64,000 nucleotides of DNA from Deltaproteobacteria bacterium (GTDB lineage Bacteria > Myxococcota_A > Polyangia > JAAYKL01): assembly GCA_029565915.1 (NCBI GenBank), contig JAKQNG010000296.1:1-64000 (forward strand), given 5' to 3'. Positions 1,346-29,257 of this stretch are shown piece after piece. Made by a program: the position numbers and the translations under genes. Position 1 is the stretch's first letter. Each line of letters begins with the position of its first letter. A model generated the notes under the pieces. That model saw only the letters and a program-made list of their open reading frames with translations, did no database searches and had not been told where the DNA came from.

Positions 1346-1759
1346 ATGAAGGCAGAAAATTCATACCGGGCATGGAAAAGGACGATGCGGATTGTCTGCC
1401 GGGTCTTGCTGATTGTCCACGCATGGTATTCCTTCATCTATGTTGCAGGGATCGTGATGAGCGCATTCCGTATGGTCGGGGAACTCGTCGATCCCATTGG
1501 TACAATCGTGTTCTCGGTCATTTTTCCTTTTTCCCTTCTTTGTTCAATTTGTTGTTTCAATGTGCTGCGGGAGAGTCGACATGCGCGCATTTATGGGAAA
1601 ATTGTCGCAATCATTCAATTGCCCTTGTTTCCATTGGGAACACTGTTGGGGGCACTATTGCTCATTTGCCTTGTAAAACTCGCCGGTTTTCCAGCCGAAG
1701 CATATTCTGAACAACACGCGGATAGCAGCCGAACGCCAGACCATCATGTGGGGATGTGA
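1346..1759 (+). CDS. Small hypothetical membrane protein
   Basis: ORF with several hydrophobic segments; internal ATG at 1346 gives a plausible start; lower GC than its surroundings. Confidence 0.5.
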   Translation: MKAENSYRAWKRTMRIVCRVLLIVHAWYSFIYVAGIVMSAFRMVGELVDPIGTIVFSVIFPFSLLCSICCFNVLRESRHARIYGKIVAIIQLPLFPLGTLLGALLLICLVKLAGFPAEAYSEQHADSSRTPDHHVGM

Positions 1760-2046
1760 CATCATGGGCCATCTGGAACATGCTCATCAGAATAATTCGC
1801 CCTGGCAGTGAGGAGATACAAATGCCCCAATTATCTGCATTTACTCACCCCGGTCGGGCACCCCGGTCGGGAATATGAAATCATTGGGGAATTCGAAAAT
1901 GGGGGCGGCGGATCACTTCACGGGGAATGGGTCCTGCTCGATGACGGCGTAGAATTCGTTCACGGCAAGTCCGGCGCCGCCGGATGACCGGGGTGGTCCA
2001 GTTGGTGCCCACGAAGCGCACGAATGCCTTTCCGCGGAAGGTTATC

Positions 2047-2490
2047 TCATCCTCCGGAATCGAAAAGATCCAGCGGTTCAGTGAAAACCTGCGACAGGGG
2101 CAGTGCGATGATCTTTTCGCCCATGGCGAAGCGCTCGCGGCCGGGGTAGACCACGCGGAGGGATTCGAGGTTCAGATCCGCAAGAGCCGAGTGCATCGAC
2201 CAGGTTGTCTTCGGCGCCAGGGTCATCTTGATCTCGAAGCCATACCGCCGGTTGCCCCGTACGATCAGAAAATCGAGCTCCGCACCGGTGTGGGTGCGCC
2301 AGAAGAAACACTCTTCGGGCGTTGCGCGGTATCGCGTCGCAAGGGTCGAAATCACCATCCCTTCAAAAGACGCGCCGGCTTTCGGGTGGCCATCCAGGTC
2401 GTCTTGCGTGGCAATGCCGAGGAGCGCGTGCAGGATTCCGGAGTCGGCGAGGTATACTCTGGGTGATTTCTGAGATGCGGACAATGTGAT
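2047..2490 (-). pseudogene. C-terminal fragment of a DUF4143-family AAA+ ATPase
   Basis: SPRVYLADSGILHALLGI...FEGMVISTL...FFWRTHTGAELDFLIVRGNRRYGFEIK matches the DUF4143 C-terminus; the ATPase half is absent upstream. Confidence 0.75.
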
Positions 2491-2531
2491 AGAATCCGGA
2501 CATACAGAATTTTTTGTCGAAGGAGAAAGCC

Positions 2532-3749
2532 ATGAAACGCGCATTGATGATTGTCGCCGCCCTGTCCCTTCTTCCGGGATGCCCCGGCAATGAAGAACAG
2601 GACAACCGGCTGGGAGAAGACGGATATCCCTGTGGGGAGGTGACCTGGGAGAGTGTGTCCTGGGATCATGTCCTGGAGGACGGCAGCACCCCGGCGGAAC
2701 TGCTGGGGACCGTGGAAGGGGAGTGTTCCGCCCCCATGACCTGGGACGCTTTCAACAGCGACTGCGACATCGTCCCCGCCACCGGGGAGACCTCGATGGC
2801 GGTGACTGTTACGCTGGATCACACGCAGGTGCGCCTGGGACACTACGAAAACCCGGACACCGAAAGAATGGCGGATGAGGAGGTCGAGTGTGCCGCATTC
2901 CTTCTGGAGGTTCCGGCCCGGATTCACCTGGAAACCGCGGACGGCATGTTTGTGGAAACCACCGACACCCTGCTGATGGGCTATGCCGGGGCCACCGGTT
3001 CCCCTGTCCTGTCGTTCGAAAAGGAGCTGGGCGAACAGGGAGGTGCCCTGCAGATCGACCCCGATGACGCCACCTCGGTGCTCCTGCGCTACCGGCTGGG
3101 CGGTGCCACGGCGGCGTGCGCCGGGAATGTGGAGCTTACGACCAGCCATAGTGAAGGAGATGGAATTTCTTCCACAGGCAGCGGCGAACTGGGCAGCTGG
3201 TCGGCCACCTCCTGCCCCCTGGGAGAGACCGAAGTGGACGTGACCGCCATCCTTCCGGACGGCACCACCGTGGTCGAGCGGGTGGCCGAATACTGGGACG
3301 CGGCCGTTTACACGGGCACCTGGACGAACGGGGGCGAAGCGGACCTGCTGCTCCACGTGGCGGCGGCCGCAGACACCGCGTGCCGGATGGACGGCGGCTA
3401 CGGCGCCAGTCTGCCAGCCACCATCACTTACAGCACCAGCGACGGCGTCATCGCAGAAACGGTGGTGGCCGGCGAGCTGAGTGTGACCTTTGACGAAGCG
3501 GGCAATGTACGGGGGATGTCTGTCGATCTCAACGATGAGCTGGTCTGCACTTCGGCAGAGGACACCATTCCCTACGGGGACTGCGCCACGCTCACGGCGG
3601 CGACCATCCAGCTGAGAGTCCACGAGACCCCGGAAGGGACCAGCTTCACCGACGAGGGACTCTGGATCTACGAGTACCACACCGGCAGCACGTCCACCGA
3701 TCGGGAACCCGATGCCGTTGTGGGGCTGGAATTCCCCATCGGCGGGTAA
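2532..3749 (+). CDS. Hypothetical lipoprotein
   Basis: MKRALMIVAALSLLPGCPG signal peptide with lipobox; internal ATG at 2532 preceded by AGGAGAAAG. Confidence 0.7.
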   Translation: MKRALMIVAALSLLPGCPGNEEQDNRLGEDGYPCGEVTWESVSWDHVLEDGSTPAELLGTVEGECSAPMTWDAFNSDCDIVPATGETSMAVTVTLDHTQVRLGHYENPDTERMADEEVECAAFLLEVPARIHLETADGMFVETTDTLLMGYAGATGSPVLSFEKELGEQGGALQIDPDDATSVLLRYRLGGATAACAGNVELTTSHSEGDGISSTGSGELGSWSATSCPLGETEVDVTAILPDGTTVVERVAEYWDAAVYTGTWTNGGEADLLLHVAAAADTACRMDGGYGASLPATITYSTSDGVIAETVVAGELSVTFDEAGNVRGMSVDLNDELVCTSAEDTIPYGDCATLTAATIQLRVHETPEGTSFTDEGLWIYEYHTGSTSTDREPDAVVGLEFPIGG

Positions 3750-19551: not shown

Positions 19552-20121
19552 TCATCGTCCGGCCGCTGCCAGCACTTTTTCTGCCGTGATTCGCGTGCCG
19601 GGTTGAATCAGTTTCCAGACGAGAACAAAGGAGCCCGCGTGAACCTCCTTCTGTCCAACGACGACAGGCAGCATCTCCAGAAACCGCCGCCGGAACAACC
19701 CGGGCCGGAATGCGGGCAGCGCCACCAGCTTTTCGATGTCCTGCAGATCCTTTACACGGCAGCGGAACGTCTTCATCAGAACCAGGTCTTCGGGGCACAG
19801 GGTATATACCTTCAGCCGGATGCCGGAAAACGAACCGGCATGAACTGCCAGCCTGCGCCAGTCATCGGGCAGATGGGATTCAAAGGTATGAATGGCACCG
19901 TTGAGGTTGAGGGCGATGGTTTCCGGGGCTTCCGCGCTCGTTTTTAGCAGATCCCGGTTGTTCCCGTCGATGAACGCATCCACGTCCTTTGTTGCCCGGG
20001 TGCCGGGAACCAGTATCAGCATGGCGGTCCCTCCTCCGAGGTAGAGCCCGGTTTCCTGCCGGAGGCGGGCATCCAGCCAGCGCAGAAAACGTTTCAGCGA
20101 TGGGGCAGTCACCAGGTTCAC
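19552..20121 (-). CDS. Nucleotidyltransferase-like protein (AbiEii/DUF6036-like), putative toxin of a TA pair
   Basis: YLGGGTAMLILVPGTRATKDVDAFI NTase signature; 4-bp overlap with an upstream HTH gene. Confidence 0.65.
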   Translation of the reverse strand: MNLVTAPSLKRFLRWLDARLRQETGLYLGGGTAMLILVPGTRATKDVDAFIDGNNRDLLKTSAEAPETIALNLNGAIHTFESHLPDDWRRLAVHAGSFSGIRLKVYTLCPEDLVLMKTFRCRVKDLQDIEKLVALPAFRPGLFRRRFLEMLPVVVGQKEVHAGSFVLVWKLIQPGTRITAEKVLAAAGR

Positions 20122-20684
20122 GCCATGTGCCTTCTGAAATCACCGAGGTCAAAGGCGCCGTAAACGCCGCGCTCCTTCATCGGCCGGGGAGTCCGGGAAA
20201 TAATCTGTTCCGCCGACATGTACCGGCGGCCGAAAAAGAATGCGCTGCCATCATCCGGCATGCAGGTGTCCGCCAGAGAGCGAAAGGTCGACTGCCTGGA
20301 AATCGCGAAGGCAATCTGGGATGCCGCCGAAAGGAGCCTGCGCTGGGTCGTCGTAAGGGCAACCCGGGACGCCTCCGCAAGGTCGGAGGCGCGAAGGACG
20401 GCGGGCAATACTTCAAAACTCCGGGCGTCTCCATTCTCGGATTGCTGCAGAAGGGTGCGCAGCTCTGTGGCCCGTTCATCGACGCCGGCCAGCAGTTCCA
20501 GAGGATTCACGCCGAGCACACCGGCCAGGGCGACAACGCCCCTGGCGACAGGCTGGTAGTCCGCTTTGAACATGTCATAGAACCCCTGACGGGAGAGACC
20601 GGATGCGACGATCAGGGAGGAGGCATTGAAGTCTCCTTGTTGCATGAGCGCTTCCACCTTCTGTTTGTCGATACGAAGACGCAT
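20118..20684 (-). CDS. HTH (XRE-like) regulator, putative antitoxin
   Basis: N-terminal HTH (ASSLIVASGLSRQGFYDMFKADYQPVARGVVALAGVLGVNPLELL). Confidence 0.65.
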   Translation of the reverse strand: MRLRIDKQKVEALMQQGDFNASSLIVASGLSRQGFYDMFKADYQPVARGVVALAGVLGVNPLELLAGVDERATELRTLLQQSENGDARSFEVLPAVLRASDLAEASRVALTTTQRRLLSAASQIAFAISRQSTFRSLADTCMPDDGSAFFFGRRYMSAEQIISRTPRPMKERGVYGAFDLGDFRRHMA

Positions 20685-23313: not shown

Positions 23314-25476
23314 TCAATACCGCCGTATTGGTGACGATTTCGGGTGGTTCAGGCGTCCATGAAGCGCCGTCATCACGGCGAACACGTCCGCTTCGATGTC
23401 TTCGGGAACATGGCGGAGCATGGCGGCAATGAGGGTCTCCACCGCCAGCCGCGGGCTGACCCGGAAGGAGGCGATTTCGCCGGGCTCGCGCAATTCAAAG
23501 ATGTTGGTAAAGCTGTGGTCCTCGTTGAAGCCCGCCAGCAGTTGTCGCAGAGAGACCGCACCGGCAAGGCGACGATACTCCCGCAGCATCTCGTTGGCGA
23601 CCTGCAGTGCGGTCGGATCTTTCTCGCTGGCCTCCATCAGATCAACGCCGATGGTGAGTTGGCCGATCCGCTGCAGAAAGGAATCCACAGTTTCGCCGGT
23701 GATGATGCTGCCGTGCTGCGGGGCGATGATACGCACCTCGGGGGAGAGGCGATGGACCGCCAGCAGGGCGCGATCCAGCGCGCGCCGACTCGGCATGTAA
23801 ATCTCGTGAAACATGGCCACGCCGCCAAAGCTGTTGTCGATCGCCACCATGCCCGGACCTGAAGTGGTTCCCCCGAACAGGTCTCCGGAAAACAGCACGC
23901 CGCTGCCCGGATCATGGACCATCACCGCACCCCGGAAATGGCAGAACGGCGTGGGAACAAACCGCAGATGCTGGTCATCTCCGAAACTCAGGTGGCTGCC
24001 GGGGATGCTCTCGGTGGAGATGTACAAGCCCGGGTCGAATCCGTAGTGGCGGACCAGTCGCCAGGTGTCTTCGCTGCAGACGATGAAGGCACGGGGCGCC
24101 AGACGCTGGATCGCCGCCGCATTGCCGCACACATCCGGATCCTGGTGATTGAGGAAGATGTAGTTGAGGTTTTCGATGTTGCCGATGATGGACACCACCT
24201 TTGACACAACCGTGTCCATGTCCCGGGGCGGTCCGGGATCCATCAGCACGGAAATCGTGCGACCGGCCGCGGAAAAGACCCGCAGATAGGCGTTGCACTC
24301 CAGCTGTGTGCCGTGACGCCGTCCCACCCAGTACGCACCCGGCGCCAGCTCCACCACCTCGTCGTCGGTCCCGGAGCTGTGGAGGAGTGACACCCTGCGG
24401 ATTGCGGGCAACGGCGGCGGGGTCGGGACCGCCGCAGCACGCGGGGATGTAACCGCTCGGGAGGATGCGGGATGCCGTCCGGCATGGCGCAGCCGGCTGA
24501 GCAGCGACGAGATGTCCCGTTGCAGCTCCACCATGGATTCCTGTCGATCCGCCGGATTCTTGGCAATGGCGCGGAGCACCACGGCGCGCGTTTCGTCGGG
24601 AAGCCCCAGCTCCACGGCGCGTGCCTGGTCCCAGGGGGGCGTGTCATAGATGTGCTGCATGAAAACCCTGAAGTAGGATTCGTCATCAAAGGGCACCCGG
24701 GCAAACAGCAGCTCATACAACACGATGCCCAGAGAATAGATGTCCGACTGCGCCGTCATCTCCCGGCCCTGACACTGTTCGGGCGACATGTAGGCCGGCG
24801 TGCCGAAGACACTTCCGGCCATCGTCAGACCCTTCTTCAACGTGCCGGCCGTCGGAATGACGGCATTCGCGATCAGTTTGCCGATTCCCAGATCCAGGAT
24901 TTTCAGCACCGGTTCTCCGGTGGATTCCGGCTGGTGGAGAAAGAGGTTGTCGGGTTTCAGGTCGCGGTGGATCACCCCGCGCTCGTGGGCGGCAGCCATG
25001 CCTTCGCAGGCCTGCAGCAGGAAGGAGAACGCGTCATGGGGAGAGATGCTCTTTTGTGCCACCATCTGACCGAGGGTGCGTCCGGTCAGTTTTTCCATGA
25101 CCATGAAGTGGGCGAAGCCCGAAAGGACGCCGAAATCGAGTATCGCCACCACGTTGCGATGGGCGATGAGCGAGATGAGCATGGCTTCCTGCCGGAACCG
25201 ATCGTTCACCTGGTCGTCGGTCGCGTGTTCGGCCTTCAGCACTTTCAACGCCAGTCGCCTGCCCGTGTCGGTGTGCTCCACTTCGTAGACATCGGCCATG
25301 CCGCCGGAGCCGAGCAGGCCCAGAACGCGATATCGGTCTTTTACAACGGTGCCGATCAGCGGATCGGAACGCCCGGAAACCGGACGGACGATGGCGCCGT
25401 CCACCGGGCAGTACCGCACATCGGGATTCGCGCCCTCCTGGCCGCACAACGGGCAGAACCAGATATTTACTGTCAT
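23314..25476 (-). CDS. Ser/Thr protein kinase with C-terminal flavodiiron/ODP-like MBL-fold domain
   Basis: N-terminal zinc ribbon (CPLCGQ...CPVDG), kinase motifs (HRDLKPDN, DLGIG, APE-like SPEQ), then LNHQDPD, FSGDLFGG, APQHGSII. Confidence 0.85.
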   Translation of the reverse strand: MTVNIWFCPLCGQEGANPDVRYCPVDGAIVRPVSGRSDPLIGTVVKDRYRVLGLLGSGGMADVYEVEHTDTGRRLALKVLKAEHATDDQVNDRFRQEAMLISLIAHRNVVAILDFGVLSGFAHFMVMEKLTGRTLGQMVAQKSISPHDAFSFLLQACEGMAAAHERGVIHRDLKPDNLFLHQPESTGEPVLKILDLGIGKLIANAVIPTAGTLKKGLTMAGSVFGTPAYMSPEQCQGREMTAQSDIYSLGIVLYELLFARVPFDDESYFRVFMQHIYDTPPWDQARAVELGLPDETRAVVLRAIAKNPADRQESMVELQRDISSLLSRLRHAGRHPASSRAVTSPRAAAVPTPPPLPAIRRVSLLHSSGTDDEVVELAPGAYWVGRRHGTQLECNAYLRVFSAAGRTISVLMDPGPPRDMDTVVSKVVSIIGNIENLNYIFLNHQDPDVCGNAAAIQRLAPRAFIVCSEDTWRLVRHYGFDPGLYISTESIPGSHLSFGDDQHLRFVPTPFCHFRGAVMVHDPGSGVLFSGDLFGGTTSGPGMVAIDNSFGGVAMFHEIYMPSRRALDRALLAVHRLSPEVRIIAPQHGSIITGETVDSFLQRIGQLTIGVDLMEASEKDPTALQVANEMLREYRRLAGAVSLRQLLAGFNEDHSFTNIFELREPGEIASFRVSPRLAVETLIAAMLRHVPEDIEADVFAVMTALHGRLNHPKSSPIRRY

Positions 25477-25577: not shown

Positions 25578-26769
25578 TCAGCCGGCTTTGATGCAGATGA
25601 GGCCCTTCAGGTAGGCGCCTTCGGGAAAGTGGACGGAGACCGGATGATCGGGCCCCTGGGTCAGGCGGGCCACCGTGCGCATGTCCGCTCCGGCGTCCAG
25701 TGCCGCGCCGGCGACGATTTTTGAAAACAGCTCCGCGTCGATGCCCCCCGAACACGAGAACGTGGCGAGGATGCCCCCCGGCCGCAGCAACCCCATGGCC
25801 AGCAGGTTGATGTCCTTGTATCCCCGGGCCGCCTTTTCGGCAGCGGCGGGGGTCGGCGCGAACTTCGGGGGATCGAGAATCACCACGTCGAACCGACGTC
25901 CTTCATTGCGGAACCGGCGCAGCAGGGCAAACACGTCTTCCTCCACCCACTCGAACAGGTTTTCGTCAAACCCGTTGCGCGCGGCGTTGTCCTTCGCGAG
26001 AGAGAGGGCCTCCCTGCTTGTGTCCACGGATACGATGCCCCGGGCCCCGGCGGCGGCCGCGTGGATGCTGAACCCCCCCCGTGTAGCAGAAGCAGTTGAG
26101 GACGTCCTTTCCCGCGCACAGGTCGCCCACCAGCCGGCGATTGGCCCGCTGGTCCAGGTAGAATCCCGTCTTGTGACCCGTGTCCACCCGCACCCCGAAG
26201 ACATGGCCGTATTCGCGGATATCGAGGGTGGCGGAGGAAACGGTGCCCCGGAGGAGTCCGCTGCGCTCCGGCAGTCCCTCCAGCTTCCGCACGTCCGCGT
26301 CCGACCGCTCGTACACGGCCGCGCAGCCGGTTTCCTGCGCCAGCACGTCAACGATGACGTCGAGGAAGTGCTCCACCCCGGCGGACAGGCACTGGAGGAC
26401 GACCACGTCGCCGTAACGATCCGCGATGAGTCCCGGCAGACCGTCCGATTCTCCGTGAATGAGCCGCAGGGCATCCGTGTCATCTGTCAGCCGCAGGCCC
26501 TGTCGCAGGCCGATGGCGCTGCGGATCCGGCGGACAAAAAAATCCCGATCCACCGTCTCGCCTTCGGTAAAGGTCCACACCCGGGCGCGGATCTGCGATG
26601 CGGGCGACAGCGCCGCCGTTGCCAGGAAGGCGCCTTTCTGATCGCGGACGGTGACGGTCTGTCCGGTGGCCGGCGTGCCGGTCACCCTGTCCACAGCGCC
26701 GGAAAAAATCCACGGATGACGCCGCAGAAGGGATTTCTCGCGTCCCTTTTTCAGGATCAGATCGCTCAT
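25578..26769 (-). pseudogene. rlmI: RlmI-like class I rRNA (cytosine-C5) methyltransferase, single-base frameshift in a G8 tract
   Basis: N-terminal PUA-like LKKGREKSLLRRHPWIFSGAV to CFCYTGG in one frame, GFSIHAAAAGA... to VILDPPKFA in another; removing one G at 26073-26080 joins them. Confidence 0.85.
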
Positions 26770-26788
26770 GGAATGCGGGACACCACGG

Positions 26789-29257
26789 CTAGAGCTCGCT
26801 GCCGATGGCGGACTTGATATCGTTGCGGGAGGCCTCCACGAATTCCCGCAGGCGCCGCTGCACCCGATCATTGATGCTGTCCCTCTCCCAGCTGCCATCC
26901 GCGTTCTTTGCGCCGGCGGGCACACCGGTCAGCACCTCGATGCCCTCGTCGATGGTGGACACGGCGAAGATGTTGAACTTTCCGGCCCTCACCGCCTCCA
27001 CCACCTCCGCCCGCAGCATGAGGTTGCGCACGTTGGGCACGGGAATCAGCACCCCTTCTTCGCCGGTCAGTCCCCGCCGCTCGCACACCTTGAAGATGCC
27101 TTCGATCTTTTCGTTCACGCCGCCGATGGGCTGCAGCTCGCCCAGCTGGTTCACCGAACCCGTCACCGCGATGCCCTGTTTGATGGGGCAGGTGGACAGG
27201 GACGAGAGCAGGGCGAACAGCTCCGCGGCGGACGCGGAATCCCCGTCGATTTCGTCATAGGACTGTTCAAAGGTGACGGATGCCGAAAATCCCAGGGGCT
27301 CCTCCTGGGCATAGCGGCCGCCCATGTAGCCGATCATGATCAGCGCACCCTTGTCGTGGATGGCGCCCGAGAGCTGGACTTCCCGGTCGATGTTCACCAC
27401 GCCCCGGCGGCCCACGTAGGTCCGCGCCGTGATGCGGACCGGCGTGCCGAAGGCGAACCCTCCCACGTCATAGATGGCGATGCCGTTCAGCTGGCCCACC
27501 CGGGCGCCGGCCGTGCGGATGAGGATACCGCCCGAATCGATTTCCCGTCCCACGGCCTCGCTGACGGAGCCGTGCATGTATTCCCGCGCGGCGATGGCCT
27601 GCTCCACGTCCTGCCGGCGGATGGCCTTTGCTTTTGCCTTTCGTGCGAAGCGGTTGGCCTCCGCCAGCAGATCCAGGAGCCCCGCCTGCCGCGTGGAGAG
27701 CATCTCCCGGCTGCGGGCCTTGCGGGAAGCCGCTTCCAGCACCCGCGCCACGCCGCCCCGGTGGACGGGCAGATAGCCTTCTTCCTTGCAGACCTGCCCG
27801 ATGAAGCGGGCCAGCTTGGTCACGTTGGCGCGGTTGTTGGGCATGGTGGGTTCGAAGTCGGCGAGCACTTTGAACAGGCGGCCGAAATTCTCGTCCTCCG
27901 TGTTCAGCAGGTAATACATCTCGTAGTTGCCCACGAGGACCACCTTCATCTTCAGGGGAATCGTGCCGGGCTTCAGGGCCCCGGCCAGCTTGGGCGCCCC
28001 GCTTCCGTGGGGCACGCCTTCGTCGATGCGGATTTCTTTGTGCCGCAGGGCCCGCTTCAGGCTGTTCCAGGCATTTTCGTGGGAGAGCAGCTCCTGGGCC
28101 TGGATGAGCAGGTAGCCGCCGTTGGCCTGGTGCAGGGCCCCGGGCCGCAGCAGGGTGTGGTCCGTGGAGAGGCCGCCGGGGGTTTCGCGGTATTCGAAGG
28201 CACCGCAGAGGGCCGCCGCCGTGGGCATCCGCTCCACCACTACCGGTGCGCCGATTTGAGAGGAGCGGTCGACGAATACATTCACCCGGTAGAGGATTTC
28301 CGGATTGTCGCTGGCGGGCAGATCCCGGTCCAGAAAAGGCAGCAGGGCGTCTTCCGGACTCTGGCCGGAACCGGGTGGGCCGGATGGTCCTTCCCGATGG
28401 TCGTCCGGGGTGAAGATTTCGTAGTTTTCGATGCAGTGCTTCTGCACGTTGCGCAGGTAGGCGGTGACTTCGCCGCCGAGGGACCGGTACTGGTCGATCA
28501 CCTCGCCGATGCGCTCGCCGATGATGGGGGTGATGGCCCGGATTTCGGCAGCACGCACCCGTTCATCGTGGTCGATTTCGAGCTGTCGCCGGGCATAGGC
28601 GAAGGACTCGGCCTTTTCCTGAAACTGGATAATCCGCTTTTCGATGCGGCGGCGGGTGTTGTCGGGCAGCTTTTCCATGTCCGCTTCCGTGAGCGGCCGG
28701 TTCCGGTACAGGGGCATCACGTGCAGAGCGTTTTCACTTTCCCGGATGACCAGTCCCAACTCCTTTGCCACCCGGGAGGCCTTGGCCGTCAGGGCATCGG
28801 CCCGGGCCTTGGTCTCCGCCACGATGCCCGCGCGGATGTGGCCCGAGGCCCCTTCGAGCAGAATGCGGGGAATCATCTTTTTCAGCTCCCGGACGAGGCG
28901 TTCCATCTCCCGGGCGAACACCCGTCCGCGGCCCGCGGGCAGAAGGATGGGCCGGGGGCGGTCGGGGGCGTCGAAATCATGCACGTAGCAGATGTCTTCG
29001 GGTACGGGTTCCTGCTGGGCCCGGGTGGCGAGAATGCGCTTCAGAATCGAGGTCTTGCCAGAGCCCGGATCGCCCACCGCAAAGATGTTGTAGCCCCGGG
29101 TGGTGATTTCGAGACCCGTTTCCACCGATTCCATGGCCCGCTCCTGGCCGATGATGTCGTGGCAGGCGGACAGCTCCGCGGTGGTCCGGAAATCCAGCCA
29201 GTCCGATGGAATACTGCCGGAGAGCTGGGCGGGTTTGAGTCTGTGATTTTTCTTCAT
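26789..29257 (-). CDS. Lon-related ATP-dependent protease (AAA_32/LonB-like)
   Basis: GDPGSGKTSIL; S16 protease segment FEQSYDEIDGDSASAAELFALLSSLS...GIAVTGSVNQLGELQPIGGVNEKIEG. Confidence 0.93.
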   Translation of the reverse strand: MKKNHRLKPAQLSGSIPSDWLDFRTTAELSACHDIIGQERAMESVETGLEITTRGYNIFAVGDPGSGKTSILKRILATRAQQEPVPEDICYVHDFDAPDRPRPILLPAGRGRVFAREMERLVRELKKMIPRILLEGASGHIRAGIVAETKARADALTAKASRVAKELGLVIRESENALHVMPLYRNRPLTEADMEKLPDNTRRRIEKRIIQFQEKAESFAYARRQLEIDHDERVRAAEIRAITPIIGERIGEVIDQYRSLGGEVTAYLRNVQKHCIENYEIFTPDDHREGPSGPPGSGQSPEDALLPFLDRDLPASDNPEILYRVNVFVDRSSQIGAPVVVERMPTAAALCGAFEYRETPGGLSTDHTLLRPGALHQANGGYLLIQAQELLSHENAWNSLKRALRHKEIRIDEGVPHGSGAPKLAGALKPGTIPLKMKVVLVGNYEMYYLLNTEDENFGRLFKVLADFEPTMPNNRANVTKLARFIGQVCKEEGYLPVHRGGVARVLEAASRKARSREMLSTRQAGLLDLLAEANRFARKAKAKAIRRQDVEQAIAAREYMHGSVSEAVGREIDSGGILIRTAGARVGQLNGIAIYDVGGFAFGTPVRITARTYVGRRGVVNIDREVQLSGAIHDKGALIMIGYMGGRYAQEEPLGFSASVTFEQSYDEIDGDSASAAELFALLSSLSTCPIKQGIAVTGSVNQLGELQPIGGVNEKIEGIFKVCERRGLTGEEGVLIPVPNVRNLMLRAEVVEAVRAGKFNIFAVSTIDEGIEVLTGVPAGAKNADGSWERDSINDRVQRRLREFVEASRNDIKSAIGSEL

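Follow-up and report, generated by a model that had tools for sequence, protein, structure and literature searches.

Oxygen-binding diiron proteins (ODPs) serve signal transduction as sensors of oxygen and of iron (PMC7319448, PMC7666581), having been recruited to several signalling pathways and in some cases fused to signal transduction domains (PMC7319448). The ODPs of known structure, from T. denticola (6qnm, 6r9n) and T. maritima (6qrq, 6qwo), are free-standing proteins of 253 and 255 residues that signal through a chemoreceptor and through CheA, a histidine kinase; in the T. maritima sensor the glutamine that precedes the last histidine has been noted as an unusual ligand (PMC7785958). 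Here we describe a gene in which an ODP domain is carried by the same polypeptide as a Hanks-type Ser/Thr kinase (STK). It lies within a 64,000-nucleotide stretch of contig JAKQNG010000296.1 (assembly GCA_029565915.1, Deltaproteobacteria bacterium), referred to below as the window, at the coordinates given in a preliminary description of this DNA (23314-25476), and is placed on the minus strand with its ATG at 25476 and its stop codon, included in this span, at 23314-23316. The 720-residue product comprises a zinc ribbon, the kinase, an ODP diiron-type metallo-β-lactamase (MBL) domain and a C-terminal helical extension, all of which are located below by their coordinates on the same strand. 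The fusion of a Ser/Thr kinase to an ODP-like MBL domain, as first noted in the preliminary description, is borne out by matches to the Pfam Pkinase (E = 3e-43) and ODP (E = 1.1e-47) models within the one protein, which are far beyond chance.

Identity and metal site of the C-terminal domain

The ODP domain extends over residues ~372-615 (23632-24363), of which residues 392-589 are matched by the Pfam ODP model (PF19583; 162.9 bits against a cut-off of 27.2), whereas the generic Lactamase_B model matches the same protein with an E-value of only 4e-6. Among proteins of solved structure the ODP chemotaxis sensors score best, with phmmer E-values of 2e-21 and 3e-19 and profile E-values of 4e-56 and 2e-51; flavodiiron proteins (FDPs) come next in the profile ranking at 8e-22, followed by hydrolase-type MBLs at ~2e-6 or worse. 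The AlphaFold model of residues 361-720 (pLDDT 91.7, pTM 0.86) was submitted to Foldseek, the check that the preliminary description had proposed, and the first eight matches in the PDB were the T. maritima and T. denticola ODPs, among them the peroxy-diiron form 6r9n, ahead of the flavodiiron proteins. TM-scores normalised by target were 0.82-0.85 for 6qwo, 6qrq and 6r9n, and 0.75-0.85 across the ODPs of the two species, while a viral fold library returned generic MBL matches only.

All four motifs quoted in the preliminary description are present, and together they supply the HxDxD, H, D, H set that marks an ODP, with a glutamine replacing the third histidine of FDPs. The first, LNHQDPD, provides H444-Q-D446-P-D448 (24133-24147), followed by V449 where flavodiiron proteins have H84; FCHFRG provides H513 (23938-23940), FSGDLFGG the bridging carboxylate D532 (23881-23883), and APQHGSII the ODP-type glutamine and histidine ligand Q587-H588 (23713-23718). 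Conservation was scored over 58 relatives, in all of which H444, D446, D448 and H588 are identical. H513 is retained in 57 of 57 ungapped rows, D532 is an aspartate in 57 of 58 relatives and a glutamate in the other, and the ODP-specific Gln587 is kept in 57 of 58; the position of flavodiiron H84 is V, I or L in every relative (n = 58), and H557 and Y560 are also conserved. The C-terminal domain is thus a member of the ODP sensor family by sequence and modelled fold, with a predicted metal site. An incomplete metal site or a match to hydrolase-type MBLs, the outcomes named in the preliminary description as telling against its reading, were not seen: the ligand set is complete and conserved by sequence, and the hydrolases fall far below the ODPs by profile. 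As regards the metal itself, a Zn-bound crystal form of the T. maritima ODP is known (6qwo), and Zn or Mn could be bound here instead of Fe.

Two other identities were considered for this domain and rejected. A hydrolase-type MBL is disfavoured by motif (HxDxD-V and not HxHxDH), profile and fold, and a classical flavodiiron reductase by motif (no HxExDH), profile, fold and the missing flavodoxin domain; the lack of such a domain, already remarked upon in the preliminary description, was upheld by a Pfam scan of the window protein, which found no rubredoxin domain either. With the flavodoxin electron donor missing, turnover as an NO/O2 reductase is probably not the function of the domain. It is improbable that the ODP domain is an O2-scavenging or other redox or hydrolytic enzyme, with a kinase joined to it as a means of localisation or of controlling the enzyme by phosphorylation. 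The MBL/FDP fold is mostly enzymatic, and this domain is the sole ODP/FDP-family match in its own metagenome-assembled genome (MAG), as might suit such an enzyme, but the protein offers no flavodoxin or rubredoxin domain as electron source, its ODP signature is of the sensor type, and the fusion of ODPs to GGDEF, MCP and REC domains leaves a sensor role as the common factor.

Beyond the ODP domain the protein continues for ~105 residues (~616-720; 23317-23631) in an extension that was absent from the preliminary description. The predicted structure places helices around a β hairpin in the order α-α-β-β-α-α; no Pfam family covers this region, and the alignment to the solved ODPs ends at about residue 615. 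The extension accompanies the ODP domain in near relatives, fused and free-standing alike, which makes it a probable part of the sensor module and not of the kinase.

The kinase half and its proposed control

The zinc ribbon that the preliminary description had placed at the N-terminus is present (C8-x2-C11-x11-C23-x2-D26-G; 25396-25455), its composition being three cysteines and one aspartate and not four cysteines. This C3D ribbon is retained in all seven of the other proteins of the same fusion type (clade A below) that were checked (L005, L006, L014, L015, L069, L070 and L072). The kinase domain itself occupies residues 49-312 (24541-25332; Pfam Pkinase, E = 3.1e-43), with PknB and PknA of M. 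tuberculosis as its closest folds, and contains all of the catalytic motifs: the GSGGMA loop, LALK with the VAIK-type lysine, HRDLKPDN, DLG and SPE. It is accordingly a motif-complete, PknB-like Hanks-type domain, for which phosphotransfer is predicted. In the catalytic loop the window protein has HRD, while four clade A kinases (L005, L006, L055 and L072) have HCD, a non-RD form with Cys for Arg. The genome that carries the gene has ~30 matches to other kinases, and two of its kinases (L101 and L102) have an N-terminal CxxC ribbon like that of the window protein.

Kinase and ODP are joined by a linker (residues 313-371; 24364-24540) with a Pro/Ala-rich stretch of low confidence at 335-353, where the pLDDT is below 50. 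In the full-length AlphaFold model the individual domains are confident while the arrangement of one domain relative to the other is unreliable (pTM 0.53), which leaves any kinase-ODP contact putative. The lack of a fixed interface, and the fact that fusion by itself is no proof of regulation, could be taken to favour a kinase that is constitutive or under another input, with the ODP acting as a scaffold that binds metal, or as a module for dimerisation, and sensing nothing; the complete conservation of the metal ligands, together with that of H557 and Y560, is not to be expected of a pure scaffold, and we regard this explanation as having little likelihood.

We consider it likely instead that the window protein is a soluble Hanks-type kinase responsive to O2/Fe(II), with sensor and kinase combined in a single protein. 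By analogy with the characterised ODPs, the diiron site would bind Fe(II) and then O2 to give a stable peroxo adduct. PknB-type kinases activate through dimers, and the peroxo-diiron ODP reportedly acts on the phosphorylated state of CheA, a result attributed to Muok et al. in 2019. We envisage that the ligand would change the ODP, most likely through the arrangement of its dimer and the adjoining C-terminal helices, and that the way in which two PknB-like kinase domains come together across the flexible linker would alter as a result; the repositioning of these domains would switch both autophosphorylation and the phosphorylation of substrates. In an apparently anaerobic relative of the myxobacteria such a switch might report the intrusion of oxygen or iron status. 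For the window protein we infer the identity of the metal, O2/Fe(II) as the ligand, the dimer-based mode of switching and the sign of the response. The proposal that the ODP gates the kinase is strengthened by the recurrence of ODP-STK fusions, by the pairing of the two in operons and by the fusion of ODPs to other signalling outputs.

The same architecture might alternatively sense NO, peroxide or the availability of iron, and not O2. Diiron sites of the FDP type react with NO, as is established for the flavorubredoxins that are the next best matches, and ODPs have been described as sensors of iron as well as of oxygen (PMC7319448). Set against this, it is with O2/Fe that the ODP-type coordination, in which Gln replaces H84, has been characterised, and no NO-stress genes were recognised adjacent to the kinase-ODP gene; NO, which the preliminary description had listed among the possible ligands, finds no specific support, the published ODP ligands being O2 and Fe(II). 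We judge this explanation unlikely, if less so than a scaffold or an enzyme, and retain the O2/Fe(II)-responsive kinase as the preferred reading.

Relatives, origins and genomic context

When the ODP half was searched against 84,980 species genomes, 63 loci were recovered, and further loci were added from the host's family and phylum; linkage of ODPs to Ser/Thr kinases was observed repeatedly among them. Fusions fall into clade A, the zinc-ribbon type (the window protein and eight others), clade B from Polyangiales (nine proteins) and clade C (eight proteins). In 26 loci of the Myxococcaceae type a separate ODP gene is instead followed directly by an STK gene on the same strand, with the kinase domain beginning 153-370 nt past the ODP reading frame, such that the order is kinase-ODP in the fusions and ODP-kinase in the operons. 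One such locus, in which the free ODP gene of Myxococcus xanthus directly precedes a kinase gene (L042), presents a testable partner pair. A further pair, L047, groups beside that of Myxococcus xanthus even though its record bears the title Comamonas sp. KCTC 72670; that record is probably mislabelled or contaminated. In one clade C locus (L073; genes at 33-1232 and 1351-3519, both on the minus strand) a divergent free-standing ODP with APHHG, not APQHG, lies immediately downstream of the kinase-ODP fusion.

The genetic coupling of ODPs to signalling proteins extends past Ser/Thr kinases. REC-ODP fusions occur in Caldithrix and one Bacteroidetes MAG, the former mirrored in Desulfobulbus by a REC-DUF4388 gene that adjoins a free ODP gene, and HEAT-repeat-ODP fusions occur in Fermentibacteria. 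Genomes of the host's own phylum encode four ODP-GGDEF proteins and one ODP-PAS-MCP protein, possible O2-linked sensors for c-di-GMP signalling and taxis respectively.

The ODP tree places the STK-fused proteins in three distinct groups, with the operon-type proteins in another, and its well-supported branches force three changes of the fused state. The kinase tree, which includes paralogues from the host's own genome, places each of the four groups in a clade of its own. Constraining all four kinase groups to one origin is rejected, if weakly (AU p = 0.027); the same constraint on just the three fused groups is not (p = 0.156). These trees support repeated coupling of ODP to STK, at least as regards fused versus operon forms. 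On balance we lean towards the broader reading, in which a diiron-peroxo sensor directly controls a Hanks-type STK in one soluble polypeptide and in which ODP-STK coupling among myxobacteria evolved at least twice and probably on three or four occasions, in the form of kinase-first fusions as well as ODP-first operons.

Searches of the host genome (90% completeness) gave no match to COX1 or CydA, that is, no heme-copper or bd oxidase was seen, while four POR_N (PFOR-family) and several rubrerythrin matches were obtained, a combination that suggests an anaerobic host. The fusion is found in two of 13 other genomes of the host's family and, with most of these genomes lacking the gene, is patchy and not essential to the lineage. 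COX1 is lacking in two fusion-bearing relatives (G003 and G011) and in most of the family whether or not the gene is present; it does occur in a clade A genome (G282) and in the clade B and C genomes searched, and the role of the kinase-ODP protein is therefore not tied to strict anaerobes.

No conserved neighbour gene that would point to a target or partner was found in the clade of the window protein. Directly upstream of the kinase-ODP gene in the window lies an RlmI-like RNA methyltransferase gene (25578-26925, minus strand) that is broken across two reading frames, a PUA-like N-terminal part (25966-26925) and a methyltransferase part (25578-26483), by a frameshift that is either genuine or an assembly error. 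Elsewhere in the window a DUF6036/AbiEii-like nucleotidyltransferase gene (19552-20684, minus strand) follows a small gene that encodes a product with an HTH-like start, the two being a possible type IV toxin-antitoxin-like pair.

Comparison with known systems

The window protein shares the kinase fold and catalytic motifs of PknB-type Hanks kinases, from which it differs in having no PASTA domain (Pfam scan) and in carrying an ODP sensor in the C-terminal place. To our knowledge an input is known for only a minority of the many myxobacterial Ser/Thr kinases; here the input domain is of characterised chemistry, so that a single purified protein lends itself to tests of the ligand, the spectrum and the output of the kinase. 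With the flavodiiron proteins that act as NO/O2 reductases (ROO, FprA and flavorubredoxin), its second-best match, it has the diiron MBL core in common, but it lacks their flavodoxin domain and has HxDxD for HxExDH, V for H84 and Gln ahead of the last His. The likeness to the ODPs of T. denticola and T. maritima is far closer, since these have the MBL fold, the HQDPDV, H, D, APQHG and FHxxYM elements and the lack of a flavodoxin domain in common with the window protein. It is the covalent attachment to a Ser/Thr kinase, in place of action through a chemoreceptor and CheA, and the additional C-terminal extension that set the window ODP apart from them.

ODP sensors and ODP-signalling fusions in general have already been published, while an ODP-Ser/Thr kinase was not found described in literature searches, although Muok et al. 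(2019) or its supplement may still list one. If the proposed role is correct, ODP sensing reaches beyond chemotaxis to Ser/Thr phosphorylation. In the window protein, as in the ODP-signalling fusions already reported (Muok et al., 2019; restated in PMC7319448), the ODP would take the place of the input module for signal transduction.
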